Of a DNA stretch of 64,000 bases, positions 11,179 to 31,613 are shown in pieces. Location: contig NZ_SCTC01000077.1 of assembly GCF_004299445.1 (NCBI RefSeq), positions 1 through 64,000 on the forward strand. The letters are read 5' to 3'. A program made the translations under genes and the position numbers. Within the stretch, counting starts at the first letter, position 1. Each line of letters opens with the position of its first letter. The DNA is from Phenylobacterium sp. (lineage in GTDB: Bacteria; Pseudomonadota; Alphaproteobacteria; Caulobacterales; Caulobacteraceae). The notes below the pieces were generated by a model, which saw only the letters and a program-made list of their open reading frames with translations, made no database searches and was not told where the DNA came from.

Positions 11179-12050
11179 GCGGGGGCTCCCGAACGCACCC
11201 GCAGCAGGCGGGAGGCCACGTTGTCGATGGCGAACATCAGCACCAGGGCCACGGCGAAGAGGAACAGGCCCGCCGTCACGTGCAGGAAGCCCTGCCCCAC
11301 GGCGTCGCCGAAGTGATAGGTCAGCAGGATCAGCGTCACGATCCGCAGCACGTTGGCGGTCACCGCCACGGGGATGATCAGGCAGAGCAGGAACAGTGAG
11401 TAGCGCCAGCCGGCGTTGCGCAGCAGGTAGATGTAAAACAGCGTGATCGCGATCAGGCCGATGAGCGAGTTCAGACCCGAACAGGCGTCCTCGACCAGCA
11501 GCTGGTAGGGACCGGCCGTCATCGTGACCCCCTCGCGGACGATGGGGATGCCCATCGGCTCGACGACCCCGAAGGACAGCACCGAGACTAGCAGCTTCAG
11601 GGGCGCCGTGAACTGGTCGATGACCCAGCCAGGCAGCGGCAGCAGTAGCGCCAAGTACAGCAACGGGAACCAGTTCTTGGCCAGCGTCCGGACGCCGAAT
11701 CGGTCGTGCATCAGCGACATGGCGAAACCGTAGAGACCGGCCGCCTCAAGGCTGATGATGTCGTAGGCGCGTCCGAACACGTACATCGGAATCGACACGA
11801 GAATACCGAGGGCGGTCAGGGCGATATGGCCCGGACGCGCCTCTTCAGTCATCGAGGGAAGCTTGCGCCAGACCAGCCAGAGGCCGGTGGCCAGCACGAT
11901 GGGACCGTGCGCGCCGATATCCCTGGACCAAACCTGGACACCCAGGCGGTACAGAGTCGGCGCCGCGAGCGCCACAGCCAGCAGAATCCAGGGTCCTCGC
12001 GACAGGAGCCAAGCCCTGTCGATCGTCTGTACGTCTCCGGCGGCCGTCAC
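11175..12050 (-). CDS. xrtV: Exosortase (XrtV-type)
   Basis: A 291-residue integral membrane transpeptidase-like enzyme with about eight hydrophobic segments. The catalytic signature is clear: Cys190 in LLVEDACSGLNS, Arg236 in VTANVLRI, and a downstream His (most likely His257 in GQGFLHVTAG; His246 is also nearby). Exosortases recognise the C-terminal PEP-CTERM signal, cleave it and probably transfer the protein to an acceptor. The type V assignment rests on the alphaproteobacterial context, the separate EpsI and the PEPxxWA-CTERM protein encoded at 36542-37198. It is part of the leftward polysaccharide-export operon. Confidence 0.9.
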   Translation of the reverse strand: MTAAGDVQTIDRAWLLSRGPWILLAVALAAPTLYRLGVQVWSRDIGAHGPIVLATGLWLVWRKLPSMTEEARPGHIALTALGILVSIPMYVFGRAYDIISLEAAGLYGFAMSLMHDRFGVRTLAKNWFPLLYLALLLPLPGWVIDQFTAPLKLLVSVLSFGVVEPMGIPIVREGVTMTAGPYQLLVEDACSGLNSLIGLIAITLFYIYLLRNAGWRYSLFLLCLIIPVAVTANVLRIVTLILLTYHFGDAVGQGFLHVTAGLFLFAVALVLMFAIDNVASRLLRVRSGAPA

Positions 12051-16280: not shown

Positions 16281-17516
16281 CTAGAGCCGGCTCCGCCGAC
16301 CCTGGATCGTGCGGCGCACGGTGCCCAAAAGGTTCTTCAGCGCCTCGACCGACGGCGCCTTTCGGGCGGCCTCCACCACCTTCAGTCCCCCCATCCGCGG
16401 ACGCGGCTGCGCCACCAGCGGTAGCGCTGCCGTGCGCGCCAGGACCAGCCGCTTCCGCCGCGCCTGAGAGGGCTGCATCTTGTCGATCTCGCCAGGGGCA
16501 AGCGGCTCGACCTCAAGGGCGCGGGCGCCCAGAGCGCTCTTCAGCAGGGCCTCGCCGGCGTCGGTCCGCGCGATGATGAGGCTGCGGCCCTCTTCTTCCT
16601 CGAAGCTGGGATAGCCGGAATCGTCTCCGTACCAGGCGTCGGCGCAGGCGATGTCGGCGACGCCGCCCACCGCATCAGGACAGATCTTGCACCGGAATTG
16701 CACCTCCTTGGAGAGGTGGGCGCCCCAGCTGTCGGCGTACGACATCTCGCCCACCCGCCCATCGGGTGTTTCGGCGGCGCAGTTGCCGGGCCAGCCTCGG
16801 CCCCGGAACCGGAATGCCGAGAGCGGCTCGCCCGCCAGGCCCATGGCGCTCAGGATCCGGCCTACGCCGTCATGGCTGGGTATGCCGCCACAGAAGAACG
16901 ACAGCACGATCGGCACATGGGCGGCGACCCGCGGATCGTGGCGGGCAAGGCGGCGCAGCGCCGAGGCGTCGCACGGCTTTCCCACGAACGCCGCCTTGCC
17001 GCCCTCGGCCACCAGGGCCTCGATGTCGGCCAGCGGCGACGAGGCCGTGTATCGCGAACCCGCCGCGGCCAGCACCTCCGCGGGCGAGCGCGAGACGACC
17101 GTGATGTTGCGCGTCGGCTGGGCGGGGTCGGCGGCGATGTGGACGACCCGGTCGACGAGACCTGTCTCCAGGGCATGGATCAGCAAGCCGGAGATGGCCC
17201 CCCCGGAAGAACCTTCGAACCGCGTGTGCTCGTTCGTGGCCGCCCCGGTCAGCACCTGGCGCAATGGCCCCCAATAGGGATGTATCTCGGGCGCGCCCGC
17301 CCACGGCTCGACCACGGCGCCGGGGCACGTGTCGGCGATGGTCCGCTCGGCCTCGCGGCTCACCGGGCCTAGGACCACGGGACGGTTATATCCGGGTGGC
17401 GTCGACTCCATGCGGATGGCGCCTCCGGACACGCCGGCGCACAGGCCGCAGCCGGTGCACAGCTCTCCGGCAAGGACCCGGCGGACGGTCGGCGAATCGG
17501 GAAGGTTCTCGGACAT
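16281..17516 (-). CDS. FrhB-like (coenzyme F420 hydrogenase beta-subunit family) Fe-S protein
   Basis: A 411-residue cytoplasmic protein. An N-terminal ferredoxin-like motif CTGCGLC (Cys20, Cys23, Cys26) is followed by the FrhB N-terminal and C-terminal domains (FEGSSGGAISGLLIHALE; AFVGKPCDASALRRLA; FFCGGIPS) and a second cysteine pair near 276-279 with a later Cys in DIACADAW. The family includes flavin/Fe-S oxidoreductases and is often found in polysaccharide loci beside pyruvyl-transferase-family genes, one of which is at 25129. The substrate is unknown. I chose the ATG at 17516 because GGAG lies just upstream; a GTG at 17561 would add 15 residues. Confidence 0.78.
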   Translation of the reverse strand: MSENLPDSPTVRRVLAGELCTGCGLCAGVSGGAIRMESTPPGYNRPVVLGPVSREAERTIADTCPGAVVEPWAGAPEIHPYWGPLRQVLTGAATNEHTRFEGSSGGAISGLLIHALETGLVDRVVHIAADPAQPTRNITVVSRSPAEVLAAAGSRYTASSPLADIEALVAEGGKAAFVGKPCDASALRRLARHDPRVAAHVPIVLSFFCGGIPSHDGVGRILSAMGLAGEPLSAFRFRGRGWPGNCAAETPDGRVGEMSYADSWGAHLSKEVQFRCKICPDAVGGVADIACADAWYGDDSGYPSFEEEEGRSLIIARTDAGEALLKSALGARALEVEPLAPGEIDKMQPSQARRKRLVLARTAALPLVAQPRPRMGGLKVVEAARKAPSVEALKNLLGTVRRTIQGRRSRL

Positions 17517-17671
17517 CGGGCTCCGCTTCGAGGCGGCTTGGACCTCTATGGTCTCCGCCACCGGCTGTCATCTGCGCCAAACAACCCTCGGTTAGACGGC
17601 ATAAGGTTCACCGGTCCTTTACGCTGTCGCGGTCGATAGATAGGCGGACAAACAACGGGGCGGCTTCGGCG

Positions 17672-18748
17672 ATGGCGAATTCAGGCGAGAGGGACGCGGT
17701 CCAGACCCCGGAAAAGGGGCGGCGGCTGCGTCTTTGCCTGGCCGCGTCGGGCGGCGGTCATGTGCGCCAGCTGCTCGACCTGCAGCCGGTCTGGTCTCGG
17801 CACGACTACTTCTTCATCACCGAGGATACGGCTCTCGGCCAGACCCTGAAAAACGACCACCGCACCTACTTCGTCCCGCACTATGCCTGGGGCCAGGTCA
17901 AGTTCGGCACACCATTCAAGATGATCGGCCGGGCCATCGCCAGCTTCTTTCGCACCGCCGGCATCATGCTACGCGAGCGCCCCGACTTCGTGATCAGCTC
18001 GGGGGCCGGCGCCGTGTTCTTCGCCGTGCTCTGGGGCCGGCTGCTGGGCGCGCGGATCGTCATCATCGAAAGCTTCGCGCGTTTCGAGAAGCCGTCGCTG
18101 TTCGGCCGGATCGCCGCGCCCTTCGCCCACGACATGGTCATCCAGTCGGCCAAGCTGGCGTCCATCTATCCGAAGGCCCGCGTCTACGACCCGCTGAAGT
18201 ATCCGGACACCGAGCCGCCCGCGAAGCAGTCGCTGCTGTTCGCCACGGTGGGCGCCACCCTGCCCTTCGACCGCCTCGTGGACTCGGTCGCCCAACTGCA
18301 CGCCGAAGGCGCGATTCCCGAGAGAATCCTGATCCAGACCGGAATCGGCGGTCGCGCGCCCGAGGGGCTCGAGGTGCATGAGACCCTCCCCTTCGACCAG
18401 ATGCAGGCGCTGCAGCGCGACGCCTCGATCGTGATCTGCCACGGCGGGACCGGCTCGCTGATCACGGCGCTCCGCCAGGGCTGCCATGTCATCGCGATGC
18501 CGCGCCTGTTCGCGCAGGGCGAGCACTACGACGACCACCAGCTCGAAATCACCGAGGCCTTCGAGGTCCGCGGCCTGGTCAAGGTGGCTCGCTCGGTCGA
18601 CGAGTTGCGCACGGCCCTGGCCGAGATCCGCGACCGTCCCCGTCGTCAGGCGACCACCGATCCGCGCGAGCTGATCGACTTCCTGAACGGCCTGATCGCC
18701 GACAAGGCAGGGGCCCCGAACCCACCGATCCCCGCGGGGGCGTCGTGA
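17672..18748 (+). CDS. Fused PssD/PssE (Alg14-Alg13)-type glycosyltransferase
   Basis: A 358-residue protein combining two functions that are usually separate. Residues about 20-170 resemble PssD/Alg14, the membrane-binding half (LCLAASGGGHVRQLLDL; DFVISSGAGAVFFAVLWGRLLG; IIESFARFEKPS). Residues about 185-340 resemble PssE/Alg13 and the GT28 C-terminal domain (LLFATVGATLPFDRLVDSV; ASIVICHGGTGSLITALRQG). Together they would transfer a sugar from a nucleotide donor to a lipid-linked acceptor at the cytosolic face. The start ATG at 17672 is chosen because the frame upstream is antisense to the FrhB-like gene. It opens the rightward operon. Confidence 0.82.
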   Translation: MANSGERDAVQTPEKGRRLRLCLAASGGGHVRQLLDLQPVWSRHDYFFITEDTALGQTLKNDHRTYFVPHYAWGQVKFGTPFKMIGRAIASFFRTAGIMLRERPDFVISSGAGAVFFAVLWGRLLGARIVIIESFARFEKPSLFGRIAAPFAHDMVIQSAKLASIYPKARVYDPLKYPDTEPPAKQSLLFATVGATLPFDRLVDSVAQLHAEGAIPERILIQTGIGGRAPEGLEVHETLPFDQMQALQRDASIVICHGGTGSLITALRQGCHVIAMPRLFAQGEHYDDHQLEITEAFEVRGLVKVARSVDELRTALAEIRDRPRRQATTDPRELIDFLNGLIADKAGAPNPPIPAGAS

Positions 18749-18936
18749 CCAGGTTCACCCTGCACCGGATCGGCGCCGAACCCTCGAACGGGTTCTATTT
18801 CAACCCCCCCGCCTTTCGGGTAATGACCCGCCGACGCGCGCGCCTCGGGCTGGCGCGGCGCTTGCAAGCAAACCCGGCCGCTCGCGGCGGCCACATCCTC
18901 CTGTCCGCGCCTGGCGCAATCGAAATGGTGGTTTGA
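18745..18936 (+). CDS. Possible 63-residue ORF, coupled to both neighbours
   Basis: A GTG start overlaps the stop of the glycosyltransferase gene (GTGA at 18745-18748), and its stop overlaps the ATG of the acyl carrier protein gene (TGATG at 18934-18938). The codons keep the high third-position GC of the region. The peptide is basic and proline-rich (FYFNPPAFR, RRRARLGLARRLQANPAARG), with no family I recognise. If it is not translated, the 187 bases are an intercistronic leader, and GGGTT...AACCC near 18792-18808 could form a small hairpin. The double coupling argues for translation, but the sequence itself is not convincing. Confidence 0.35.
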   Translation: MTRFTLHRIGAEPSNGFYFNPPAFRVMTRRRARLGLARRLQANPAARGGHILLSAPGAIEMVV

Positions 18937-19178
18937 TGTCCCAAGAGAGCATTCTCGGCGAACTGCGTGAGATCATGATCGACGTGTTCGACGTCGACGA
19001 CCTCGAGATCACCCGCGCCACCACGGCCGAAGACGTCGAGGAGTGGGACAGCCTCAGCCACGTGCGTCTGGTCGTGGCCGTCGAACGTAAGTTCGGTTTC
19101 AAGTTCAAGAACTCTGAGATCGAAGGTCTGAAGACCGTTGGCGACCTCGCCGACGTGATCGCCGCCAAGACCGCCTGA
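18936..19178 (+). CDS. Acyl carrier protein
   Basis: An 80-residue acidic four-helix carrier protein. The phosphopantetheine attachment site is Ser39 in WDSLSHVRL. Helix-rich flanks (LGELREIMIDVFDVDDLEI; VGDLADVIAAKTA) fit the family. It lies 24 bases upstream of an FkbH-like gene, so it probably carries the acyl unit made by that enzyme and is not the housekeeping fatty-acid ACP. The start is the ATG at 18936; an in-frame TTG lies one codon earlier. Confidence 0.9.
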   Translation: MSQESILGELREIMIDVFDVDDLEITRATTAEDVEEWDSLSHVRLVVAVERKFGFKFKNSEIEGLKTVGDLADVIAAKTA

Positions 19179-19202
19179 GGCTCACGCGCAAACGGTACCC
19201 AC

Positions 19203-21128
19203 ATGCTTTCGGACCTGGCCTGGCTGCCCGCCGCTGCTCCTGACTTCCGCGAACGCGTCCGCGCCCTGCGCGCAGAGGCCGCCGCGCCCGGCGAGCAGTA
19301 CTTCGAACGCGCCGTGGCGCTGGCCACGGCGGCGCTCGACGAGAACCAGCTGGGTCAGCTCGCCAGGGTGGCCCGCGACGTCGCGCCGGCCGCGCCCGCG
19401 GCGTTCTCGAAGGTCAGGCTGGGCCTGATCGGCGACGGCACGCTGTCGCTGCTGGCCCCGGTTATCTCCGGCTCCGGCGTCCGCCACGGCCTGCTGATCG
19501 ATGTGGTCGAAGGCGCCTACGGCAGCGGCGTGCAGCAGGCCATGGACCCTACCAGTCCGCTGCACGGCGCCGGTCTGGACATGTTGCTCATCGCCTCGGA
19601 CGCCCGGTCGCTGGGTCTCCACCGGGCCGCCGACTCCCTTGAGGACGCCGACGCCCGCGTCGAGGCGGCCCTCGCCCAGCTCAAGCTGGTGGTCCAGGGC
19701 TTCAAGCCCGCCGTGGCCGCCGCAATCCTGGTGCAGACCGTCGCGCCGCCGCTGGAGCCCCTGTTCGGCAGCTTCGACCGCGTCGAGCAGACCTCGGCCT
19801 TCGCCATGGTCGAGGCCCTGAACCGGCGCATCGGCGAATGGGCGGCCGAGGGCCAGATCGTGGTCGTCGACATCGCCCGCCTGGCGCTCTCGATCGGCCT
19901 GGAACGCTGGGACGCGCCGCGTCACTGGCACGCCTCGAAACTCTCGTTTGCGCCCGAGATGGCGCCGATCTACGGCGACGTCGTCGCCCGCACCGTGGCG
20001 GCCCTGCGCGGCCGGGCGAAGAAGTGCCTGGTGCTCGACCTCGACAACACGCTGTGGGGCGGCGTCATCGGCGACGACGGCGTGGCCGGCATCGCGCTGG
20101 GCCAGGGATCGGCGGCGGGCGAGGCCTTCCTGGCCATCCAGCATACCGCCTTGGAATTGCGCCGCCGCGGCGTCGTCCTCGCCGTCTGTTCCAAGAACGA
20201 AGAGGCCGCCGCCCTCCTGCCCTTCCGCGAGCATCCCGAGATGGTGCTCAAGGAGGACCACATCGCCGTCTTCCAGGCGAACTGGACCGACAAGGCCGCC
20301 AATCTGCGCGCCATCGCCGAGACCCTGAACATCGGCATCGACGCCCTCGTGTTCCTCGACGACAACCCCGCTGAGCGCGAGCAGGTGCGTCGCGAGTTGC
20401 CGCTGGTGGGCGTGCCCGAGCTGCCCGAGGAGCCGGCCCTCTATCCCCGGATGCTGATGGCCGCCGGCTACTTCGAGGCGGTCGCCTTCACCCAGGACGA
20501 CCGCGACCGCGCCGGCATGTACCAGGCGAACGCCGCCCGCGCCGCCGCCGTCAACGCCTCGGGCGACCTCGACAGCTACCTGGCCTCGCTGGACATGGTC
20601 TGCACCATCGCGCCGGTCGACAGCGTCTCGCGACCCCGCGTCGCCCAGCTGATCAACAAGTCGAACCAGTTCAACCTGACCACCCGCCGCTACACAGAGG
20701 CCCAGGTCGAGGCCGCCGAGAGCGATCCGCGCCGCCACATCAGCCAGGCGCGCCTGGTCGACAAGTTCGGCGACAACGGGATCATCTGCGTGATGGTCGC
20801 CGATCGCCAGGGCGAGGCCTGGGAGATCGACACCTGGCTGATGAGCTGCCGAGTGCTGGGCCGGCGGGTTCAGGAGGCCTGCCTCGACCATCTGGCGCGC
20901 GCCGCGCGGGCCGACGGCGCACAGCGGCTGATCGGCCGCTACATCCCGTCCCCCAAAAACGCGATGGTCCGCGACCACTACGCTAAGCTTGGATTTACGT
21001 TGCTGAGCGAAGAAGCCAGCGGCGAGACGCTCTGGACGCTCGACCTTGCCGCCTACGCCAGCCCGGAGCTTCCGATGCTGGTCGACGACAAGGCCGTCGC
21101 CGGCGCCGCCCTGGAGCTGCAGCAATGA
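19203..21128 (+). CDS. FkbH-like HAD-IIIC protein with C-terminal acetyltransferase-like domain
   Basis: A 641-residue multidomain enzyme. Residues about 1-265 are an N-terminal domain common in large FkbH-like proteins. Residues about 275-430 are the HAD-IIIC/FkbH domain with motif I CLVLDLDNTLWGGVIGDDG and the later VFLDDNPAEREQVR. Residues about 440-610 resemble a GNAT acyltransferase (LINKSNQFNLTTRRYTEAQV, IDTWLMSCRVLGRRVQEACL). Known FkbH enzymes take a three-carbon unit from 1,3-bisphosphoglycerate and load it as glyceryl onto an acyl carrier protein. The ACP gene immediately upstream supports that reaction here; the final acceptor may be a polysaccharide. Whether glyceryl is the actual group is inference. 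Confidence 0.85.
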   Translation: MLSDLAWLPAAAPDFRERVRALRAEAAAPGEQYFERAVALATAALDENQLGQLARVARDVAPAAPAAFSKVRLGLIGDGTLSLLAPVISGSGVRHGLLIDVVEGAYGSGVQQAMDPTSPLHGAGLDMLLIASDARSLGLHRAADSLEDADARVEAALAQLKLVVQGFKPAVAAAILVQTVAPPLEPLFGSFDRVEQTSAFAMVEALNRRIGEWAAEGQIVVVDIARLALSIGLERWDAPRHWHASKLSFAPEMAPIYGDVVARTVAALRGRAKKCLVLDLDNTLWGGVIGDDGVAGIALGQGSAAGEAFLAIQHTALELRRRGVVLAVCSKNEEAAALLPFREHPEMVLKEDHIAVFQANWTDKAANLRAIAETLNIGIDALVFLDDNPAEREQVRRELPLVGVPELPEEPALYPRMLMAAGYFEAVAFTQDDRDRAGMYQANAARAAAVNASGDLDSYLASLDMVCTIAPVDSVSRPRVAQLINKSNQFNLTTRRYTEAQVEAAESDPRRHISQARLVDKFGDNGIICVMVADRQGEAWEIDTWLMSCRVLGRRVQEACLDHLARAARADGAQRLIGRYIPSPKNAMVRDHYAKLGFTLLSEEASGETLWTLDLAAYASPELPMLVDDKAVAGAALELQQ

Positions 21129-22072
21129 CGACCACCGCCAACGACGCCCTCTCCGACATGCTGGCCAGCCGGCCGCACACTCGGGCGGTGATCGACAGCG
21201 TGCTCGAGGCCTGGCCCGAACACGCCGGCTATCTGCAGAAGAGCCTGGCCGCCCGCTCGCCTGAGATGATGCGGGCGACCGAGGCCGTGGCAGAGGCCGT
21301 GCGCCGGCTGTCCAAGGGTTCGGAACGCCAGGTCGCTGAAGACTATCGCTGGACCTGCGACCGCCTGCGGGAAGAGGAGCTCTTCTTCCACCGTGAGGGC
21401 CGCTACCGCCTGTCGACGTTCGAGGCGGCGATGGCCGAGGTCTACTCGAACCACGACTACATGGCCCGCTACGTCAATGGACTGCTGCTGACCCAGGTGC
21501 TCTGGTACAACCACATCGGCACCTTCGAGCAGTTCCTGCACCGCGTTCTGGGCGCCGCCACCCAGCCCTTCGACTATCTGGAAGTGGGCCCGGGCCACGG
21601 CCTGGCGGTCTACTTCGCCGCCGCCTCAGCGCACTCCAAGAGCCTCGAGGCCTGGGACGTCAGCGCCGTGTCGCTGCGCGAGACCCGCGCCGCCCTCGAC
21701 AAGCTGGGCGTCGACAAGCCGGTCAGCCTGACCGAAGTCGACATCCTAAAGGCCGAGAAGTCTGACCGCCGATACGACCTGATCGTCATCTCCGAGGTGC
21801 TGGAGCATCTCGAGCGCCCCGACGTGGCGCTGAAGTTCCTGCACACCGCTCTGCGCCCCGACGGCCGCATCTTCATCAACGTGCCGCTCAACAGCCCCTC
21901 GCCCGACCACATCTACCTGTTCTCCACGCCCGACGACGTGAAGGCGCTGGTCAACGCGGCCGGGTTCGAGATCGAGTCCATGGAGATGTACGCGACGCAG
22001 GCCAAGCGCCTGGAGTTCGCGCTCTCGAATCGCATCACCGTGTCCGCTGGCGTCATTGCGCGTCCGGTCTGA
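21125..22072 (+). CDS. Class I SAM-dependent methyltransferase
   Basis: A 315-residue protein. An N-terminal helical region (about 1-130) precedes a Rossmann methyltransferase domain: motif I FDYLEVGPGHGLAVYFA (about 145-160), an acidic post-I region (AWDVSAVS), and the motif IV/post-IV region LIVISEVLEHLERPDVALKF. The ATG overlaps the FkbH-like stop (ATGA), so it is coupled to that gene. It could methylate the ACP-bound unit (as O-methyl transfer does in FkbH pathways of polyketide synthesis) or a sugar of the repeat unit; the sequence does not decide. Confidence 0.85.
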   Translation: MTTTANDALSDMLASRPHTRAVIDSVLEAWPEHAGYLQKSLAARSPEMMRATEAVAEAVRRLSKGSERQVAEDYRWTCDRLREEELFFHREGRYRLSTFEAAMAEVYSNHDYMARYVNGLLLTQVLWYNHIGTFEQFLHRVLGAATQPFDYLEVGPGHGLAVYFAAASAHSKSLEAWDVSAVSLRETRAALDKLGVDKPVSLTEVDILKAEKSDRRYDLIVISEVLEHLERPDVALKFLHTALRPDGRIFINVPLNSPSPDHIYLFSTPDDVKALVNAAGFEIESMEMYATQAKRLEFALSNRITVSAGVIARPV

Positions 22073-22136
22073 GGCCAAGAGCGGGGGACGGGTGTTGGTA
22101 CGGCGAGGCGCAACTCAGCGGCTGAGAGGCCTGTAA

Positions 22137-23699
22137 GTGCTTTTCAGCTCCTACATCTTCATCTTCGGCTTTCTGCCGCTCGCGCTGGTGGCGACCTACC
22201 TGGCCGGCTGGCGCATGCAGCCGCTCGCCAAGCTGGTGCTTACGGTCCTGTCGCTGGGCTTCTACGCTTGGTGGCGTCCGGCGCACCTGCCGCTGCTGCT
22301 GTTCTCGATCGTCTTCAACTATGCGGTCGGCGGCATCATCCAGAAGGCCCATGAACGCCAGCGAGACCGTGCGGTAAAGTTCTGGCTAGTCTTCGGTCTG
22401 GTCGTCGACGTCGCCCTCCTGGGCTACTTCAAGTACGCGAATTTCCTCGCCGACAATCTCAGCGGCCTGTTCGGCTTCGAGAGTACGCTGCCGCCGATCA
22501 TCCTGCCGCTGGCGATCTCGTTCTTCACCTTCCAGAAGGTCGCCTATCTCATCGACTCCGCACGCGGCGACGCGCGCAAGATGAGCCTGCTCGACTTCTC
22601 GCTCTTCGCGTCCTTCTTCCCGCAGCTGATCGCGGGCCCGATCGTCCACTACAAGGAGGTCGTCCCCCAGATCCAGACCCGCCGGTTTGGCAAGCTGATC
22701 TGGCGCAACATGCTGATCGGCCTGACGATCTTTGCCATCGGCCTGTTCAAGAAGGTGGTCATCGCCGACACGCTGGCGGTCGAAGCCAACGCCCTGTTCG
22801 ATGCGGGGCGGCAGGCGCACGAGTTCACCTTGGCGTCCGGCTGGATGGCCGCGCTGTTGTTCACCTTCCAGCTCTACTTCGACTTCTCTGGCTACTCCGA
22901 CATGGCCATCGGCCTGGCGCGGATGTTCGGCGTGAAGTTACCGCTCAACTTCCACTCGCCGCTGCGTGCGGCGAGCGTCATCGAGTACTGGCGCCGCTGG
23001 CACATGACGTTGCAGCGTTTCATCGTGGCCTACATCTTCCAGCCGCTTTCGGTGCCGCTGAACCGCCTGGCCGCCGAGAAGGGCCTGGACGGCTGGAGCG
23101 CCTTCGGGGTCGCGATCGCCATTCCCACCTTCATCACCTTCGTCGTGGTGGGCATCTGGCACGGCGCGGGCTGGACGTTCGTCGCCTTCGGGGTGATGCA
23201 CGCCATCTACATCTGCACGAACGAGGCTTGGCGCGAGCGCCGCAAGCAGCTTCGCAAGAAGCTCCGCAAGGCGGGCAAGAAGCTGGCCGATCCGGGCGCG
23301 CTCGAGATTTTCGGCTATCACGCGATCACCCTGATCGCCGTGATCTACGCCAACGTAATGTTCCGCGCCGCGACGGTCCCTGACGCCCTGGACGTCTGGT
23401 CGGGCATGACCGCGCTCCGCGGCTTCGATTTCACCCTGCCGATCGAGATCGGCTGGGGCGTCTACCTGACGCTGCTGCTCAGCATCGCCATCGCCTTCCT
23501 GGCGCCCAACACTCAGCAGATCATGTCGCGGTTCGACCCGGCGTATAACTGGCGTGAGTGGCGCGACGTGGCCAAGGCGCCGATCTCGTGGACGTGGAAG
23601 CCCGACACCAAGGGCCTGATCTTCGTCGCGGTCATATTGCTGGCCGGCGTCCTGCTGGTGCAGCGCGGCCGCGCTATCTTCCTTTACTTCAACTTCTAG
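22137..23699 (+). CDS. MBOAT family membrane-bound O-acyltransferase
   Basis: A 520-residue polytopic membrane protein of the AlgI/DltB type, with a GTG start at 22137. The active-site His342 lies in VGIWHGAGWTFVAFG, and the family features PQLIAGPIVHYKE, FDFSGYSDMAIGLARMFG and EYWRRWHMTLQRFI are present. MBOAT proteins of this class pass an acyl group across the inner membrane to a periplasmic polysaccharide acceptor. In alginate acetylation AlgI works with SGNH-fold partners, and a SGNH-like protein is encoded next door. The ACP and FkbH-like gene upstream suggest a non-acetate acyl donor. Confidence 0.9.
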   Translation: MLFSSYIFIFGFLPLALVATYLAGWRMQPLAKLVLTVLSLGFYAWWRPAHLPLLLFSIVFNYAVGGIIQKAHERQRDRAVKFWLVFGLVVDVALLGYFKYANFLADNLSGLFGFESTLPPIILPLAISFFTFQKVAYLIDSARGDARKMSLLDFSLFASFFPQLIAGPIVHYKEVVPQIQTRRFGKLIWRNMLIGLTIFAIGLFKKVVIADTLAVEANALFDAGRQAHEFTLASGWMAALLFTFQLYFDFSGYSDMAIGLARMFGVKLPLNFHSPLRAASVIEYWRRWHMTLQRFIVAYIFQPLSVPLNRLAAEKGLDGWSAFGVAIAIPTFITFVVVGIWHGAGWTFVAFGVMHAIYICTNEAWRERRKQLRKKLRKAGKKLADPGALEIFGYHAITLIAVIYANVMFRAATVPDALDVWSGMTALRGFDFTLPIEIGWGVYLTLLLSIAIAFLAPNTQQIMSRFDPAYNWREWRDVAKAPISWTWKPDTKGLIFVAVILLAGVLLVQRGRAIFLYFNF

Positions 23700-23711
23700 C
23701 GGAGGCGACCG

Positions 23712-24731
23712 ATGCGAACCCTGCACGCCCTCCGCGGAACCCTGGTGATCCTGGGCGTCGCCGTGGCCCTCGCCGTGGGCCTGAGCGTCCTGCCCGAGCG
23801 CGAATACCAGCGCTGGCAGCTTCTCGAGGGCACAATCCATGCCCGTTCGAAATGGATCTACGAGCGGATCAATTTCGATCCGGAACCGATTGATGTTGTG
23901 TTCGTCGGCCCGTCACGCGTCGGCGCCGCGATCGATGCGCCGCGGATCGGCGCGGCCCTTGCACAGCGCGGCCTGCCCAGCAATGTCGTGAACTTCTCAC
24001 TTCCCGAGACCGGGCGGAACATCAACTACACGATCATCGACGAACTGCTCAGCAAGAAGCAGCCCAAACTGATCGTCATCGGCGTGGTGGAGAAGCCCAG
24101 CCGCCTGGGCCACCCCACCTTCAAGTTCCTCGCGCCGCGCGAGCAGATCGTGCATCCCGGCTATCCGGCCGACATCAACTACCTGTCCGACCTGGTCTAC
24201 CTGCCGTTCCGCCAGGCGCAGCTGTTCGCCGCCTATGTGGCGCCGGGCGTCCTGGGTCCGCCGGCCGAGTTCCAGCCCGAGACCTATCGGGGCCACTCGG
24301 TCGACACGACCGGCGACGTCGCGCTTCCCGACGGCCGCATCCTCAACGCCACCCATCCCGGCGCGCCGGATGAGATCGAGCGCGGCGTGCGCAAGTTGGA
24401 GGCCCGTTCACGGCCGCCCATCCTGCCGGCGGAGTACGCGGAGTGGGAGTTCGGCGACGAGCGGCACTACATTCGCGAGATCGCCAAGCTGGCAAAGGCC
24501 CGCGGCGTGAAGCTCGCCTTCCTGTTCCTGCCCTATTACTCGGGCCCCTCGGCCATTCAGGAAGAGGCGCTCTACCGCCAGTATGGGCCGATCTGGATGG
24601 GCGATTTCACCGCCTTCCAGCCCGATCTCTATGCAGACTACGCCCACCTCACCAGCACGGGCGCAGACCAGATGAGCGACTTCCTGGTCGACCCGATCGC
24701 CCAGCAGCTTCAGAGCAAGGCCAAGCCGTGA
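23712..24731 (+). CDS. SGNH-hydrolase-like membrane-anchored protein, partner of the MBOAT
   Basis: A 339-residue protein with an uncleaved or cleaved N-terminal hydrophobic segment (about 8-26), so it is predicted periplasmic. It shows SGNH-like elements: Ser68 in DVVFVGPSRVGAA (block I), an Asn-rich segment LPETGRNINYT, and a C-terminal DxxH pair (Asp309, His312) in YADYAHLTSTG (block V). Proteins of this type next to MBOAT genes accept the acyl group from the MBOAT and place it on the polymer (AlgJ/AlgX, PatB, DltD roles). It starts 12 bases after the MBOAT stop, in one operon. Confidence 0.72.
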   Translation: MRTLHALRGTLVILGVAVALAVGLSVLPEREYQRWQLLEGTIHARSKWIYERINFDPEPIDVVFVGPSRVGAAIDAPRIGAALAQRGLPSNVVNFSLPETGRNINYTIIDELLSKKQPKLIVIGVVEKPSRLGHPTFKFLAPREQIVHPGYPADINYLSDLVYLPFRQAQLFAAYVAPGVLGPPAEFQPETYRGHSVDTTGDVALPDGRILNATHPGAPDEIERGVRKLEARSRPPILPAEYAEWEFGDERHYIREIAKLAKARGVKLAFLFLPYYSGPSAIQEEALYRQYGPIWMGDFTAFQPDLYADYAHLTSTGADQMSDFLVDPIAQQLQSKAKP

Positions 24732-25129
24732 AATTCCCTGCGCTCCACCACGTCGGCATCGTCCAGCCCTCGGAAGAGGACGCTCAGACGCTGATGGCGG
24801 TCATGGGCCTGGAGGAAGACTACCGCGGCTATGTCCCGCAATGGTCGGCGCTGTGTATCTTCACCAAGCGCGAAACGGGCTCGCCCATCGAGTTCGTAGT
24901 GCCCGACGGCGGCCCCCTGCTGCGTTTCAACAAGGGCGCCGGTGGCCTGCACCACATCGCCCTTGAGGTGCCCGACCTGGACCAGCTGGCCCGCGACCTG
25001 GAAGCCCAGGAGATGAAGCTTCTGGAGCCCGAGCACGTCAAAGGCGCTGGGCCCTTCCTCTGCAACTTCCTGAGCCCGGTCTACACGCGGGGCATCACCA
25101 TCGAATACGTCCAGTTGCTGGCAGACTGA
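24728..25129 (+). CDS. VOC family (glyoxalase/methylmalonyl-CoA-epimerase-like) protein
   Basis: A 133-residue protein with a GTG start that overlaps the preceding stop (GTGA). The paired beta-alpha-beta-beta-beta modules of the vicinal-oxygen-chelate fold are seen in ALHHVGIVQPSEEDAQTLM and GGLHHIALEVPDLDQLARDL, with a C-terminal acidic residue in TIEYVQLL. His8, His75-type and the final Glu would form the metal site. The fold includes glyoxalases and acyl-CoA epimerases. In this operon it could epimerise or isomerise the ACP-bound unit, or act on a sugar intermediate; neither is demonstrated. Confidence 0.75.
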   Translation: MKFPALHHVGIVQPSEEDAQTLMAVMGLEEDYRGYVPQWSALCIFTKRETGSPIEFVVPDGGPLLRFNKGAGGLHHIALEVPDLDQLARDLEAQEMKLLEPEHVKGAGPFLCNFLSPVYTRGITIEYVQLLAD

Positions 25130-26322
25130 TGGCAGCACCCCGCGAAATCCGCATTGGACTTCTCTGGCACGGCCGCGGCTCGGGCAACCTGGGCATCGGC
25201 GCGCTGACGGTCGGCAACATCCTGTGCGCACGCGCGGCCGCCGAGGCGCTGGGCCTCACGCCACGCTTCACGCTGCTGGAGTTCGCCAACGATTTCGACG
25301 AGCCCTATGTCGAGGGCCCCGACATCGACGCCTTCGAGATCACCACGAAGTCGATGCTGTCGCCCGCGGGCTACTGGTCGCGCATCGGCAAGCTGGACTG
25401 CATTCTCGACATCGGCGCGGGCGACAGCTTCACCGACATCTATTCGTCCAAGCGCTTCGGCTTCCTCTGGTTGTCGAAGGCGATGGCCTGGCTGCGCGGC
25501 GTGCCGCTGCTGTTCAGCCCGCAGACGATCGGGCCCTTCAAGCGCCAGCCGCACACGGCGCTGGCCAGCTGGGCCATGAAGCGCGCCTTCGCCGTCGTCG
25601 CGCGCGACCCGCAATCGTTCGCCGCCATCGGCCAGATGGCCCCGGGCGCCAAGGCCGTACAGGCCGTGGACGTGGCGTTCCGCCTGCCCTTCGACCGACC
25701 GGCCCGCGCGGCGGGCGGCCCGCTCGAGATCGGCGTCAATGTGTCTGGCCTGCTGTTCAACGGCGGCTACACAGGCGGCAACGAGTTCGGGCTGCAGGTC
25801 GACTACGCCGACCTGATGCGCCGCTTCATCGCTGAGATGCTCGCCCGTCCGGGCGTGCGGGTGCACCTGATCACCCACGCCACCGGCGACAAGCTGCCCA
25901 TGGACGACGACGGCCGCGTCGCCGACCGATTGGCCGCCGAGTTCCCCGCCGCCGTGCGCCCGCCGAACTTCCCCTCGCCGTCCGCGGCCAAGTCCTACAT
26001 CGCCGGCATGGACTTCCTGGTGGCCGGGCGCATGCACGCCTGCATCGGCGCCTACTCCGCCGGCGTTCCGGTGGTCCCCATCGCCTACAGTCGGAAGTTC
26101 TCGGGTCTCTTCCAGGGCGTCCTCGGCTATGATTTCGGCGTGCCGGTCTCTGGCATGAGCACGGAGGAAGCCTTGGGCTACCTGCGGACCTGCGTCGATG
26201 ATCGCGCCCGCCTGGCCGAGGCGGTTCGCGCCGGACAGGCTGTGGTCGAGGGCGCGCTCGCGGCCTACGACACCGAGCTGCGCGCGCTGTTCACCTCCGC
26301 CACGGAGAGGAAGGCCCGGTGA
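25129..26322 (+). CDS. Polysaccharide pyruvyl transferase family protein
   Basis: A 397-residue protein of the CsaB/WcaK-like family. The N-terminus has IGLLWHGRGSGNLGIGALTV, similar to the G-rich N-terminal element of the family, and CILDIGAGDSFTDIY; the C-terminal part carries VAGRMHACIGAYSAGVPVVPIAYSRKF, the conserved HxxI-type donor-binding region. Members add a ketal pyruvate from phosphoenolpyruvate to a sugar, giving the polymer negative charge, although some act as glycosyltransferases. The ATG overlaps the VOC stop (TGATG). The FrhB-like gene at 16281 often accompanies this family. Confidence 0.85.
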   Translation: MAAPREIRIGLLWHGRGSGNLGIGALTVGNILCARAAAEALGLTPRFTLLEFANDFDEPYVEGPDIDAFEITTKSMLSPAGYWSRIGKLDCILDIGAGDSFTDIYSSKRFGFLWLSKAMAWLRGVPLLFSPQTIGPFKRQPHTALASWAMKRAFAVVARDPQSFAAIGQMAPGAKAVQAVDVAFRLPFDRPARAAGGPLEIGVNVSGLLFNGGYTGGNEFGLQVDYADLMRRFIAEMLARPGVRVHLITHATGDKLPMDDDGRVADRLAAEFPAAVRPPNFPSPSAAKSYIAGMDFLVAGRMHACIGAYSAGVPVVPIAYSRKFSGLFQGVLGYDFGVPVSGMSTEEALGYLRTCVDDRARLAEAVRAGQAVVEGALAAYDTELRALFTSATERKAR

Positions 26323-28010
26323 GCGCCCGCGCCAAGAGCAAGGCGGCGGTCGCCAAGAGGGACAAGCCGCCGAAAGCGCGGCGGGTGAAGGAAGATCGCC
26401 CGCGCCGGCCGGCCCTATTCTCGCGCCGCAGCCCGGCGCCGCCGCCGACCTACGACGGCGCCCTCCTTGCCGGCTATCGTCGCCCGCCCCTCTCGAACGG
26501 GAAGCGGACCCTGCTCTACCTGCTGCTGGCGGCCATCTGCATCGGCTGGGGGGTCATGTTCGGCCTCGCCGCGCCCTTCAAGATCATGCCGTTGCTGGCG
26601 CCTCTGCCGCTTTTGGCGCTGCTTCTCGTCTGGGTCTTGCCGCAGGGCGAGTACGCACCGACCGGCGCTTTAGAGCCACTCTTCCTCGCATTCTTCGCGG
26701 CCCTGTTCGTCTGGCCCAATTACATCGCGATCACGATCCCGCACCTGCCTTGGCTCACGATGCTGCGGATCTTCGCCGCACCCCTGATCTTCGTGCTGCT
26801 GATCTGCATCTCGGTCTCACCGAACTTCCGCAAGGCGATCGGGGACCCGATGCGGTCGGATCCCTACATCTGGAAGCTGGTGGTCGCCTTCGTCGTGATC
26901 CAGACGGTGTCGCTGCTGTTCACCAACCGTCTGAACATCTCGCTGAACAAGTACATCGTCGCGCAGATGAACCACACGGCCATCTTCTTCGTCAGCTGCT
27001 ATCTGTTCACCCGGCCGGGTCTCGCAACGCGTTGGGCCGGCGCCTACCTCGCCATGGCCTACGTCATCTGCTTCGTCGGCATCTGGCAGATGCTGATCGG
27101 GAAAGTCCCCTGGGTGGGACACATCCCACCCCTTCTGAAGGTCGACAGCGCCCTGATCGACAACGTGCTCGACGGGATCGAGCGTTCCGCTATCGGCAAG
27201 CAGCGGGTTCAAAGCCTTCTCACGTCGCCCCTGGGGTTGGCGGAAGTGCTCGGACTGGCCGCGCCGTTCGCGATCCATTTCGCGGTCGCCCAGGGCAGCA
27301 GGCTGTTTACCCGCATCGTCTCGGTGCTCTACCTGCCGCTGGCCCTGTACGTGATCCTGCTCAGCGACTCCCGCCTGGGCATCGTTGTGCTGATGGGCGC
27401 AGCCTTGTTCTACGTCCTGATCTGGGCCTCGCTGCGCTGGCGGTCCGACCAGCGCAGCCTGATCGCTCCGGCGATGGTGCTGGCCTATCCCGCCGTACTC
27501 ATGGGCACCTTTGTGGCCAGCTTCTTTGTGGGCTTCCTGCGGCGCGCGGTCTGGGGCAGCGGCGCCGAGGCGTCCAGCACCACGGCCAGGCTCACGCAGT
27601 GGGAAATGGCCAAGCCACACCTGTTCTCGCACCCCTGGGGCTTCGGGATCGGTGAAGCGGCCCGGACCGTCGGGTTCCGCAGCCCGAACGGGCAGATGAC
27701 GCTGGATTCCTATTACATCCAGCTGCTCATGGACTACGGCTTCCTGGGCTTCATCGTCTACATGGCCATCTTCATCCGCGCCTCGTGGGTCGCGGGCAGC
27801 AGCGTGGTGAAGTACAAGCCGACCGGTGACCTCACGATCCTTCTGCCGATCGCCGTCGCCCTGATGAACTTCGTTGTGGCGAAGATGGTTTTCATCCTCG
27901 ACTCCAACCATCCACTCATCTTCATGATGCTGGGCGGCGCGTTGGCCCTGTCCTGGCGCCTCAAAAACAAGGCTGAGGCCGAAGCCCGCGGAGCCCCGGT
28001 GGGGGCCTAG
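26319..28010 (+). CDS. O-antigen ligase/polymerase family membrane protein (Wzy candidate)
   Basis: A 563-residue polytopic membrane protein. A basic, disordered N-terminus of about 60 residues (KSKAAVAKRDKPPKARRVKE) precedes about 12 hydrophobic segments. The O-antigen ligase/Wzy_C domain has its large periplasmic loop around residues 240-330 and the region SDSRLGIVVLMGAALFYVL. It is the only polymerase/ligase candidate in the window, so it probably joins repeat units delivered by the flippase at 9024. The start is a GTG overlapping the previous stop (GTGA). Its end overlaps the end of a convergent glycosyltransferase gene by four bases. Confidence 0.8.
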   Translation: MSARAKSKAAVAKRDKPPKARRVKEDRPRRPALFSRRSPAPPPTYDGALLAGYRRPPLSNGKRTLLYLLLAAICIGWGVMFGLAAPFKIMPLLAPLPLLALLLVWVLPQGEYAPTGALEPLFLAFFAALFVWPNYIAITIPHLPWLTMLRIFAAPLIFVLLICISVSPNFRKAIGDPMRSDPYIWKLVVAFVVIQTVSLLFTNRLNISLNKYIVAQMNHTAIFFVSCYLFTRPGLATRWAGAYLAMAYVICFVGIWQMLIGKVPWVGHIPPLLKVDSALIDNVLDGIERSAIGKQRVQSLLTSPLGLAEVLGLAAPFAIHFAVAQGSRLFTRIVSVLYLPLALYVILLSDSRLGIVVLMGAALFYVLIWASLRWRSDQRSLIAPAMVLAYPAVLMGTFVASFFVGFLRRAVWGSGAEASSTTARLTQWEMAKPHLFSHPWGFGIGEAARTVGFRSPNGQMTLDSYYIQLLMDYGFLGFIVYMAIFIRASWVAGSSVVKYKPTGDLTILLPIAVALMNFVVAKMVFILDSNHPLIFMMLGGALALSWRLKNKAEAEARGAPVGA

Positions 28011-29149: not shown

Positions 29150-29343
29150 GCGCGCGCGTCGGCCCCTGGAGTTCTGCCCGCCCCTTATTCCCGCCCAGTC
29201 CCTACAGGGTCCTTAAGCACGAGGCCGCGCAAGGAAGCCCACGCGACCGGCAGGGTCAATGCGGCTCCGGTCACCCGTTGGGGTTCTCTTTACGCCCCAC
29301 GGGATACCTGCTTAGGGCAGGTCGCGAAGCAGGGTGTGTGCGA
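29150..29343. promoter_or_regulatory. Divergent promoter region between GT4 and epimerase genes
   Basis: The 194-base gap separates the leftward glycosyltransferase from the rightward heptose operon. A short hairpin with arms CCTGC and GCAGG (about 29307-29321) lies just before the epimerase start. No clear -35/-10 pair was recognised. Confidence 0.3.
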
Positions 29344-30297
29344 ATGACGATGATTGTGACGGGCGCCGCCGGCTTCATAGGCAGCCAGCTGGTTGACCGC
29401 CTCCTCGCCGACGGCCACCGGGTGGTGGGCGTGGACAACATGAGCCGGGGCACGCGCGAGAACCTGGCAATGGCCCTGCCGCACAAGGACTTCACCCTCA
29501 TCGAGGGCGACTGCGCCGAGCCCGCGAGCCTCACCGCCGCTCTCGCCGCGCACGGCACCGCGGACATCGTCTGGCACCTGGCCGCCAACTCCGACATCGC
29601 CGCGGGCGTCGCCGACACCCGCATCGACATGCGCGACACCTTCATGACCACCTGGGGCGCGGTTGAGATCGCCAAGGCGGCGGGCGCGGCGAAGATCGCC
29701 TTCGCCTCCACATCGGCCGTCTACGGCGCCCATCCCGACCCGCTGGTCGAGACCCACGGGCCGATGCTGCCCATCTCCAACTACGGCGCCATGAAGCTGG
29801 CCGGCGAGGCGCTGATCAGCGCCGCGGTCGAGTCCCACCTGAAGCAGGCCTGGATCTTCCGCTTCCCCAACGTGGTCGGCGACCGCGCCACGCACGGCGT
29901 CATCAACGACCTGTTCCTGAAGCTGAAGCGCGACCCCACCGAGCTCGAGGTCCTGGGCGACGGCAAGCAGCAGAAGCCCTACCTGCATGCGTCCGACCTG
30001 ATCGAGGCCATGCTCTACATCGTCGACAAGGCCGACGAGCCACGGGCTCTGTACAATATCGGCCCGGAGGACGAAGGCTTCGACGTCGCCGGCATCGCAG
30101 CCGGCGTCATCGCCGCGTCGAAAACCGGCGCCAGGATCCGCTACACGGGCGGCGATCGCGGCTGGGTAGGCGACGTGCCGAAGTTCTCCTACTCGGTCGA
30201 CAAGCTGGCCCGTCTGGGTTGGCGGCCGTCCATGTCGTCGGCGCAGGCCGTGGCGCGGGCGATCCAGGAAGTGGCTGTTCAGCGGGGATTTGCTTGA
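29344..30297 (+). CDS. NAD-dependent epimerase/dehydratase (SDR)
   Basis: A 317-residue extended short-chain dehydrogenase. The NAD-binding motif GAAGFIGS is at the N-terminus, the YxxxK pair is in SNYGAMKLAGE, and KQQKPYLHASDLIEAM is the usual substrate-side segment. It begins a four-gene set for GDP-heptose synthesis and may convert GDP-heptose further, for example by 4,6-dehydration or epimerisation, but the exact sugar cannot be read. I chose ATG 29344 because it starts directly before the Rossmann motif; GTG 29338 is possible. Its stop overlaps the next start (TTGA). Confidence 0.8.
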   Translation: MTMIVTGAAGFIGSQLVDRLLADGHRVVGVDNMSRGTRENLAMALPHKDFTLIEGDCAEPASLTAALAAHGTADIVWHLAANSDIAAGVADTRIDMRDTFMTTWGAVEIAKAAGAAKIAFASTSAVYGAHPDPLVETHGPMLPISNYGAMKLAGEALISAAVESHLKQAWIFRFPNVVGDRATHGVINDLFLKLKRDPTELEVLGDGKQQKPYLHASDLIEAMLYIVDKADEPRALYNIGPEDEGFDVAGIAAGVIAASKTGARIRYTGGDRGWVGDVPKFSYSVDKLARLGWRPSMSSAQAVARAIQEVAVQRGFA

Positions 30298-31613
30298 CCC
30301 AGGTCGTCATCCTGGCCGGGGGCATGGGCACCCGGCTGAAAGAGATCACCGGCGACCTGCCGAAACCCCTGGCCCCCATCGACGGGACCACCCTGCTCGG
30401 CCGCCAGCTCGAGCTGGTGGCGGCCTCGGCCATGACGGACGTCGTGATCCTCTGCGGCTACAAGGCCGACGTGATCGCCGAGTACTGCGGCGATGGCTCC
30501 AAGTGGGGCCTGAACGTCCGCTGCGTCGTCGAGGCCGGCCCGCGCGGCACCGCCGGCGCCGTTCTGGACGCCATGGGCGAGCTGCAGGACCGCTTCATCG
30601 TCATGTATGGCGACGTGGTGCTGGACGTGGACCTCGACCGCCTGGTCGCCATCCACGAAAAACACGCGCCCGCCGCGACTCTGCTGGTGCACCCCAACGA
30701 CCACCCCTTCGATTCCGACATCGTCGAAGTCGACCGCCAGGGCTTCGTCACGCAGATCCGCGGCTATCCGCACCCGCCGGGTCTGGACCTGCCCAACCTG
30801 GTCAATGCGGGCCTCTATGTGCTGGAGCGCGACGCGCTACAGGGCTTGCAGGGCCTCCCCGAAAAGCCCGACTTCGGCAAGCACGTCTTCGCCGCGATGG
30901 TGGCCCAGGGCCTGCGCCTCTACGGCTACCGCAGCCCCGAGTACATCAAGGACGCAGGAACGCCGGAGCGCCTGGTCAAGACCGGGCGCGACATCGCCAG
31001 CGGCAAGGTCGCCGGCCTGTCCCTGCGCAACCTGGCCCCGGCCATCTTCCTGGACCGCGACGGCGTGCTCAACGAGGAGGTCGGCCTGATCTCCAGGCCT
31101 GAGAACCTGCGCCTGATCCCGGGCGTGGGCGAGGCCGTGGTGCGGATCAACCGTTCCGCCTACCGCTCGGTGATCATCACCAACCAGCCGGTCATCGCCC
31201 GCGGCGACTGCACCGAAGACGAACTGCAGGCTATCCACAATCGCCTCGACACCCTGCTGGCCGCCGAGCACGCCTACGTCGACGCGCTCTACTACTGCCC
31301 GCACCACCCGGACAAAGGCTTTCCCGGCGAAGTGCCCGAGCTGAAGTTCGCCTGCGAATGCCGCAAGCCCGAGCCCGGGATGATCCGCAAGGCCGCCGAG
31401 GAGCTGCGCATCGACCTTTCCCGCTCCTGGTACATCGGAGACACGACGACCGACATGGAGCTGGCGCGGCGCTGCGGCCTCAACTTCATCCTCGTCGAGA
31501 CCGGCCACGCGGGCCGGGACGGCAAGTTCCCCGGCGAACCGCAGCATCGCGTCCGCGACCTGGCGGCGGCCGTAAATCTCATTCTGGGAGAGCCTGTTGC
31601 GGTCGCCGGGTAA
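30294..31613 (+). CDS. HddC-GmhB fusion: heptose 1-phosphate nucleotidyltransferase and heptose bisphosphate phosphatase
   Basis: A 439-residue bifunctional protein. Residues about 1-235 are a sugar-phosphate nucleotidyltransferase (VVILAGGMGTRLKEITGDLP, KPLAPIDG, MYGDVVLDVDLD, KDAGTPERL). Residues about 248-430 are a HAD-IIIA phosphatase with D254 and D256 in IFLDRDGVLNEE, the Zn-binding YYCPHHPDKG...CECRKPEPG of GmhB, and YIGDTTTDMELA. The two would remove the C7 phosphate and then form GDP-heptose. The start is a TTG at 30294 with AGCGGGGA upstream and a four-base overlap; longer in-frame starts lie inside the epimerase gene. The nucleotide specificity is inferred from the neighbours. Confidence 0.85.
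   Translation: MTQVVILAGGMGTRLKEITGDLPKPLAPIDGTTLLGRQLELVAASAMTDVVILCGYKADVIAEYCGDGSKWGLNVRCVVEAGPRGTAGAVLDAMGELQDRFIVMYGDVVLDVDLDRLVAIHEKHAPAATLLVHPNDHPFDSDIVEVDRQGFVTQIRGYPHPPGLDLPNLVNAGLYVLERDALQGLQGLPEKPDFGKHVFAAMVAQGLRLYGYRSPEYIKDAGTPERLVKTGRDIASGKVAGLSLRNLAPAIFLDRDGVLNEEVGLISRPENLRLIPGVGEAVVRINRSAYRSVIITNQPVIARGDCTEDELQAIHNRLDTLLAAEHAYVDALYYCPHHPDKGFPGEVPELKFACECRKPEPGMIRKAAEELRIDLSRSWYIGDTTTDMELARRCGLNFILVETGHAGRDGKFPGEPQHRVRDLAAAVNLILGEPVAVAG

Follow-up and report, generated by a model that had tools for sequence, protein, structure and literature searches.

Introduction

Transfer of an acyl group from a carrier protein to a membrane-bound O-acyltransferase (MBOAT) is established for the Dlt pathway (DltA, DltC, DltB, DltX and DltD), in which the microprotein DltX carries an FXYXXF motif; in PatA, the tyrosine of the same motif, located at the C-terminus, is acetylated (PMC12148441). 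As that source describes them, the other MBOAT/SGNH pathways have no carrier protein and use an acyl-CoA donor. FkbH enzymes are best known from polyketide clusters (PMC7489565), and in tetronate pathways FkbH and an acyl carrier protein (ACP) yield glyceryl-ACP (PMC7489565, PMC4979870). Here we analyse a locus in which genes of both kinds stand side by side. It lies in a 64,000-nucleotide stretch of DNA from Phenylobacterium sp. (NCBI RefSeq assembly GCF_004299445.1, contig NZ_SCTC01000077.1, positions 1 to 64,000 of the forward strand), referred to below as the window. An earlier note, made from the letters of this DNA, had proposed that an ACP-bound three-carbon group is passed by an MBOAT to an exopolysaccharide.

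Groups of this kind are found on bacterial gums. Gellan carries glycerate in the L form (PMC9104527), located in 1986 by Kuo (cited in PMC9104527 and PMC4432689), and lactyl is also among the substituents of exopolysaccharides (PMC4432689). PMC6796983 derives the carbon of gellan glycerate from glyceraldehyde-3-phosphate. The passages of these sources that deal with gellan glycerate name no carrier or transferase, and a 2017 study of sanxan calls its acyl-adding mechanism unclear (PMC5399355).

Eight co-directional genes form one run

The run occupies positions 18936–28010 on the forward strand and encodes, in order, an ACP, an FkbH-like enzyme, a methyltransferase, an MBOAT, an SGNH-like protein, a VOC protein, a pyruvyltransferase and a Wzy-type polymerase. 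Short gaps separate ACP from FkbH (24 bp), the methyltransferase from MBOAT (64 bp) and MBOAT from SGNH (12 bp). The remaining neighbours overlap, by 4 bp at FkbH/methyltransferase, SGNH/VOC and pyruvyltransferase/Wzy and by 1 bp at VOC/pyruvyltransferase. The earlier note had placed five genes, from ACP to SGNH, in one tightly spaced set, and all five are found where it put them. It had closed the module at 24731, which cuts the run short; the VOC gene, at 24728–25129, was absent from it altogether. We suggest that the run encodes a Dlt-like, carrier-protein-dependent module for exopolysaccharide acylation, in which FkbH would load glyceryl instead of DltA loading D-alanine, and put the probability of this reading at about 0.7. 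What the analysis shows are the genes themselves, their conserved neighbourhood, intact catalytic residues, a shuttle motif, and DltD-like and epimerase-like folds.

The stand-alone ACP (18936–19178; Pfam PP-binding, 35 bits) has its phosphopantetheine site at Ser39, within WDSL, and W37-D38-S39 is kept in 73 of 73 aligned rows, in agreement with the dedicated carrier described earlier. It adjoins its partner, the proposed glyceryl-ACP synthase (19203–21128), which is built of FkbH_N, HAD-IIIC and a C-terminal acyltransferase-like part. TIGR01686 (298 bits, cut-off 146.65), TIGR01681 and FkbH_N all match above cut-off. Eight residues (D279, D281, T283, K331, K364, D386, E391 and C549) are invariant in 91 of 91 aligned rows, including those of the HAD nucleophile motif DxDxT (D279, D281, T283), which is kept; C329 is present in only 42 of the 91. 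The assignment to FkbH thus stands, but the acetyltransferase-like part is not the extra domain that it had been taken for: TIGR01686 itself spans residues 272–599, so this part is normal for FkbH.

The FkbH neighbourhood recurs in several phyla

We compared 80 loci, the best 80 of 368 FkbH relatives ranked by similarity to the window FkbH; because of this choice, the sample leans to the window type. Some of the loci end at contig ends, distances were taken from stop-to-stop frames, and the counts within 7 kb take either strand. The loci span Caulobacterales, sphingomonads, Ruegeria, Roseibium, Bradyrhizobium, Burkholderiales, Acidobacteria, Myxococcales and others, from several phyla. Within 7 kb of FkbH, 72 loci contain an ACP, 72 an MBOAT and 62 an SGNH-like protein (four seed profiles). 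On rechecking, each of the 62 has a match at E 1e-10 or better; the count falls to 54 if the FkbH strand and the motifs GxS and DxxH are required. The ACP frame is at most 100 bp from the FkbH frame in 51 of its 72 loci. In five of the eight loci without ACP, FkbH stands at the very end of the contig (L064, L075, L094) or no more than 1 kb away from that end (L058, L095).

A comparison of gene neighbourhoods across genomes was the check that the earlier note had named, and the ACP and MBOAT counts come out in its favour. Its central idea was that FkbH and ACP act together with MBOAT and SGNH. The conserved neighbourhood supports this well, as do the shuttle motif and the DltX-like microproteins described below.

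We also searched whole genomes. Among 398 of the window's order, 40 contain a match to FkbH at E 1e-40, and for 17 of the 40 the match reaches E 1e-70. Regions around this ACP-type FkbH, taken from 10 of the 17, contain an ACP in every case and an MBOAT in six. Control regions around FkbH of another clade (about 700 residues), taken from four of the 23 genomes in which this clade alone is present at E 1e-40, gave no ACP, MBOAT or SGNH match (0/4). Sixteen FkbH-bearing genomes encode one to three MBOATs each (E 1e-8). A random 15-kb stretch would therefore rarely contain one, yet 72 of the 80 FkbH loci do. In seven of the 16, the window's included (G000, G127, G033, G778, G1194, G1178 and G1191), the FkbH-linked MBOAT is the sole MBOAT at this threshold.

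Two variants stand out. In five loci the module has an additional gene, for an acyltransferase-3, between SGNH and VOC: L037 (15224–16696), L038, L042, L072 and L091. Regions L159, L160, L161 and L168 hold ACP and FkbH; L159 and L161 also have the methyltransferase, and in none of the four do the 20 kb fetched contain an MBOAT. Another transferase or another use is likely there.

MBOAT, shuttle motif and SGNH protein

The MBOAT (22137–23699; Pfam MBOAT) has H289 and H342 in 73 of 73 aligned rows, and His342 is the residue singled out earlier. At E 0.1, the only solved structures related to it in sequence are those of DltB (8jem and 6bug, E about 1e-30). The final six residues, FLYFNF (codons 23679–23696), contain the putative shuttle tyrosine and correspond to the FXYXXF motif of PMC12148441. 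An ending of the form [FIVL]xYxxF is present in 65 of the 72 MBOATs near FkbH; among all 1314 frames of at least 300 residues in these loci there are 67 such endings. Seven MBOATs lack it. For five of these (L050, L063, L069, L082 and L104), the locus holds a separate hydrophobic frame that ends in YQxF; the MBOAT of L092 ends in FVYQTY, and L101 has neither motif nor separate frame. The loose shuttle motif by itself also matches frames by chance, two of them in L069 and one in L082. When YQxF is combined with a hydrophobic stretch, six frames are found in 1.46 Mb of loci: the five small frames and the MBOAT of L081. In L063 the small frame forms the last part of an open frame of 641 codons, which leaves its start uncertain. 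Twelve of 15 FkbH-linked MBOATs from whole genomes carry the motif, and small frames in genomes G127 and G085 end in LVYQGY or FVLYQGF. Besides those of the five loci, small hydrophobic frames ending in YQxF or YQGY/YQGF are placed at 7249–7473 of L157 and 1233–1466 of L208. These frames, which occur where the FkbH-linked MBOAT has no motif of its own, are DltX-like microproteins.

The next gene (23712–24731) encodes a protein with an N-terminal helix, Ser68 and His312. It has no Pfam or NCBIfam match at E 0.001, and its assignment as an SGNH/DltD-like acyltransferase comes from its AlphaFold model (predicted local distance difference test, pLDDT, 94) and matches in the PDB. The five best rows of a Foldseek search are DltD or D-alanyl-lipoteichoic acid synthetase entries (3bma we take to be DltD). 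The DltD-type matches have E values of 4e-5 to 4e-4, but template-modelling (TM) scores are modest at 0.37–0.41, with a root-mean-square deviation of 12–14. S68 and H312 are kept in 30 of 30 aligned rows and D309 in 25, which bears out the Ser68 and Asp309/His312 of the earlier description.

Proposed tailoring genes on the carrier side

Since glyceryl loaded by FkbH would be in the D form and the glycerate of gellan is L, inversion is to be expected at some step. The VOC protein (24728–25129; 133 residues; Glyoxalase_4 above cut-off) is proposed to be a C2 epimerase of glyceryl-ACP. Methylmalonyl-CoA epimerases make up 19 of the 20 best structure matches of its AlphaFold model (pLDDT 94), the top row, 3oa4, being titled hypothetical; query-normalised TM scores to 1jc4, 6bu2, 6wf6 and 3rmu are 0.78–0.87. 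It shares with these enzymes the fold and the four metal ligands (H8, E55, H76 and E126), which, like C43 and R33, do not vary in any of 24 aligned rows. Unlike them, it falls under the cut-off of the methylmalonyl-CoA epimerase family (47.4 vs 114.95 bits), and the conserved base Glu is replaced by Gln38, at a position that varies among relatives. Catalysis by a Glu pair is unsupported, as the base position is variable; Cys43, which is invariant, is a candidate for the second base. Being an alpha-hydroxy thioester, a glyceryl thioester would suit metal-aided enolisation. We rejected a housekeeping role for the VOC protein because the true methylmalonyl-CoA epimerase is encoded elsewhere in the genome (L180, 152 bits, above cut-off) and because the window-type VOC is found, at E 1e-15, in 1 of 398 genomes of the order, the window's own.

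VOC genes are near FkbH in 38 of the 80 loci. Nine others (L055, L057, L061, L063, L069, L076, L082, L085 and L098) encode both a MaoC dehydratase and a short-chain dehydrogenase/reductase (SDR) near FkbH and on its strand, and the VOC and MaoC/SDR genes never occur in one locus (Fisher p 0.003, uncorrected for relatedness). The MaoC counts come from single-pass searches with domain slices; an iterated profile, which matched 47 of the 80 loci, had drifted into unrelated frames and was discarded. By analogy with the loading module of bryostatin, the MaoC and SDR enzymes perhaps form a branch from glyceryl-ACP to lactyl-ACP.

The class I methyltransferase (21125–22072) matches Pfam Methyltransf_23, as the earlier reading of this gene implied, and is proposed to O-methylate the ACP-bound acyl group. 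Such a gene is near FkbH in 29 of the 80 loci. In the order it is found in 7 of 299 genomes, all seven among the 17 with ACP-type FkbH, and this distribution lends some support to O-methylation, which had been offered as a guess. Genomes G265 and G147 have the methyltransferase and no MBOAT in the 20 kb fetched, linking it to the ACP/FkbH pair and not to the MBOAT.

A proposed relay and how it compares

In the mechanism that we propose, FkbH would dephosphorylate D-1,3-bisphosphoglycerate and load D-glyceryl on the ACP, as expected from its family. Glyceraldehyde-3-phosphate, the carbon source of gellan glycerate mentioned above, is one step from 1,3-bisphosphoglycerate. As linkage and fold suggest, the VOC protein may turn carbon 2 of the carrier-bound group to the L form, and the methyltransferase may O-methylate it. 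At the cytoplasmic face, the MBOAT would accept the acyl group from the carrier and place it on the tyrosine of FLYFNF at its C-terminus. This C-terminus would then swing to the SGNH protein, where Ser68 would accept the group and from which it would pass to the polymer being exported; this polymer is probably a gum of sphingan-like type that contains glucuronate. Within this scheme we infer the glyceryl identity, the carrier-to-MBOAT transfer and the acceptor.

The closest counterpart is Dlt. Both have a carrier protein, an MBOAT, an FXYXXF-like shuttle tyrosine and an SGNH serine enzyme, and the solved relatives of the window MBOAT and SGNH protein are DltB and DltD. Since the Dlt carrier feeds its MBOAT, transfer from ACP to MBOAT has a precedent (PMC12148441), one that the earlier note overlooked. 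In contrast to Dlt, the window has FkbH where the Dlt pathway has the adenylating enzyme DltA; no DltA-type adenylating family was found among the ten genes of 16281–28010 in Pfam and NCBIfam scans. The shuttle is fused to the MBOAT, with no separate DltX (a separate small frame is present in 5 of the 80 related loci), the setting is a Gram-negative exopolysaccharide locus, and the group is probably a C3 hydroxy acid. With tetronate and methoxymalonyl polyketide pathways the window shares FkbH and a stand-alone ACP and, in the methoxymalonyl case, a methyltransferase (PMC7489565). It differs from them in that the run is without FkbI and FkbK, no ketosynthase is among the matches listed, and the methyltransferase is grouped with MBOAT and SGNH genes.

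Each component is known; the combination would be a new form of carrier-to-MBOAT acylation, new in its FkbH loader, its C3 group and its Gram-negative exopolysaccharide setting. Searches of an open-access library listed no paper that, judged by title and abstract start, connects FkbH with an MBOAT in polysaccharide acylation; a listed review of aeruginosins (PMC10143770) contains both words. We see an even chance that the module represents something wider: a widespread, apparently undescribed Dlt-like relay whose head can change. In it, an FkbH-primed glyceryl-ACP would be tailored on the carrier and an MBOAT-tyrosine-SGNH chain would place C3 acids on exopolysaccharides, and it would be the likely source of gellan-type glycerate. 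Tailoring would vary between VOC inversion, O-methylation and conversion to lactyl by MaoC and SDR, and MBOAT-SGNH machines would apparently have been recruited twice. Within the literature searched, such a relay would be the first carrier-dependent acylation of an exopolysaccharide.

The proposed module also bears on the statement in PMC12148441 that only Dlt among MBOAT/SGNH pathways has a carrier protein. It offers a concrete candidate gene set for glycerate decoration. If the reading is right, it could explain the glycerate groups of gums such as gellan, make C3-acid decorations readable from genomes, and give a genetic handle on the acyl pattern, and hence the gel strength, of industrial gums.

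Evidence against the proposed module and alternative explanations

Several observations weigh against a carrier-fed module. The case for it is drawn from genes, conserved neighbourhood and predicted folds. No MBOAT lies within 7 kb of FkbH in 8 of the 80 loci, nor in 4 of the 10 regions from the order. The window MBOAT scores under the NCBIfam cut-off for DltB (TIGR04091, 163.6 bits vs 375). The shuttle motif is missing from 3 of the 15 FkbH-linked MBOATs of whole genomes, and while G127 and G085 have a small frame, none was found for G059; the motif is also present in 11 of 12 MBOATs that are not linked to FkbH. The VOC protein, as described above, lacks the epimerase base. Finally, Sphingomonas trueperi (S. 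trueperi), whose genome has both an ACP-FkbH-SGNH-MBOAT set and the glucuronosyltransferase WelK, is without the window-type VOC; the one protein there that matches it is an ordinary methylmalonyl-CoA epimerase, encoded next to a carboxylase-type gene. Glycerate in that species, if any, would in this model be D unless another enzyme inverts it.

The main doubt about the module comes from the phylogeny of the MBOATs, and it raises the question whether the MBOAT and SGNH protein carry out ordinary AlgI-type O-acetylation from acetyl-CoA, with FkbH and ACP serving another purpose in the locus. In a 46-row tree, midpoint-rooted and with several long branches, window-type MBOATs group with MBOATs not linked to FkbH, which we ourselves label AlgI-like, whereas those of S. 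trueperi, Acidobacteria and Bradyrhizobium form a separate FkbH-linked group. Thus, no donor switch is visible in the MBOAT phylogeny; the window-type MBOAT may descend from acetyl-CoA users with a switch of donor, or may still be one. AlgI/AlgJ/AlgX and PatA/PatB, the nearest in this tree, also share with the window an MBOAT with a fused C-terminal shuttle motif, the catalytic His, an SGNH partner and a polymer acceptor. To our knowledge, FkbH is not part of such acetylation systems. The AlgI/PatA systems use no carrier and an acetyl-CoA donor (shown for PatA, PMC12148441), in keeping with the carrier-free, acyl-CoA-using character of non-Dlt MBOAT/SGNH pathways, and would differ in this from the window, where a carrier gene is linked. 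Against plain acetylation stand the joint presence of ACP, FkbH and MBOAT in most of the 80 loci from several phyla, the joining of two distinct MBOAT types to the same ACP/FkbH pair, and the DltX-like microprotein in five loci. We consider this alternative unlikely.

Within the carrier-fed module, the transferred group could be another C3 acid made from the glyceryl primer, such as lactyl or methoxymalonyl. The nine loci with MaoC and SDR close to FkbH, which could yield lactyl-ACP, and the lactyl groups known on exopolysaccharides (PMC4432689) are in keeping with this. The ten window genes of 16281–28010, however, include no MaoC or SDR and no dehydrogenase of FkbI/FkbK type, and the VOC gene of the window is of the kind that never shares a locus with MaoC and SDR (38 and 9 of the 80 loci). 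For the window we regard such a group as improbable. Very improbable is a small-molecule or lipid pathway of polyketide type placed in the locus by chance: polyketide clusters are the best-known home of FkbH (PMC7489565) and 4 of the 10 order regions have ACP and FkbH without MBOAT, but no ketosynthase is among the families listed for the 37 distinct window proteins scanned (part of the window's genes), and the surrounding genes are for export, glycosyltransferases, Wzy and a pyruvyltransferase.

Polymer and locus context

The gene that ends 187 bp upstream of the run encodes a WelK-type beta-1,4-glucuronosyltransferase of sphingan type (17672–18748, forward strand; NCBIfam NF046028, 484.6 bits vs a cut-off of 400). 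Its frame was scanned from 17636, and 17672 is the first ATG of the matching part. A WelK above cut-off is a feature shared with sphingan (gellan/welan) clusters. WelK is found in 2 of 385 genomes of the window's class, the window's included, and in 25 of 397 Sphingomonadaceae-type genomes. The WelK region of S. trueperi contains sense relatives of the window WelK (49% identity), exosortase V (49%), EpsE (46%), EpsF (43%), EpsG (41%), EpsI (39%), the protein at 37465–38736 (37.5%), Wzy (30%) and an outer-membrane protein (25%). In addition, the window's beta-helix protein with RTX repeats (45677–47635) shares 31% identity with a protein of that locus over a length of 273 residues. WelK and the likeness to the S. 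trueperi locus make it likely that the exported polymer is sphingan-like and contains glucuronate. The two loci differ in that the acylation module is inside the polysaccharide locus in the window and on a different contig from WelK in S. trueperi.

WelK and FkbH are not a general pair. In Sphingomonadaceae, counted with the hand-added S. trueperi left out, FkbH is present at E 1e-20 in 3 of 25 genomes with WelK and 4 of 20 without, and at E 1e-100 in 1 of 25 and 2 of 20. Among 38 FkbH-bearing genomes picked from the 80 loci, six have WelK: five of Caulobacteraceae type and Sphingomonas sp. NFR04.

The last two genes of the run encode a polysaccharide pyruvyltransferase (25129–26322; Pfam PS_pyruv_trans, 101 bits) and the Wzy-type polymerase (26319–28010; Pfam Wzy_C). 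Exosortase V (NF035943) and a V-type EpsI, both above cut-off, are encoded at 10486–12050 and adjoin EpsE/EpsF/EpsG-like export genes; a PEPxxWA-CTERM protein is encoded at 36542–37552. Divergent from WelK and inside the locus is a gene for an FrhB-like protein of the F420 hydrogenase beta-subunit family (16281–17561). A set resembling genes of nucleotide-heptose synthesis occupies 29314–34280 and comprises an SDR, a fusion of a nucleotidyltransferase with a GmhB-like phosphatase, a GmhA-like isomerase and a glycosyltransferase-like protein. Near the locus, at 52707–54611, a CysN/CysC-like fusion of an elongation-factor-type GTPase with APS kinase points to possible sulfate activation.

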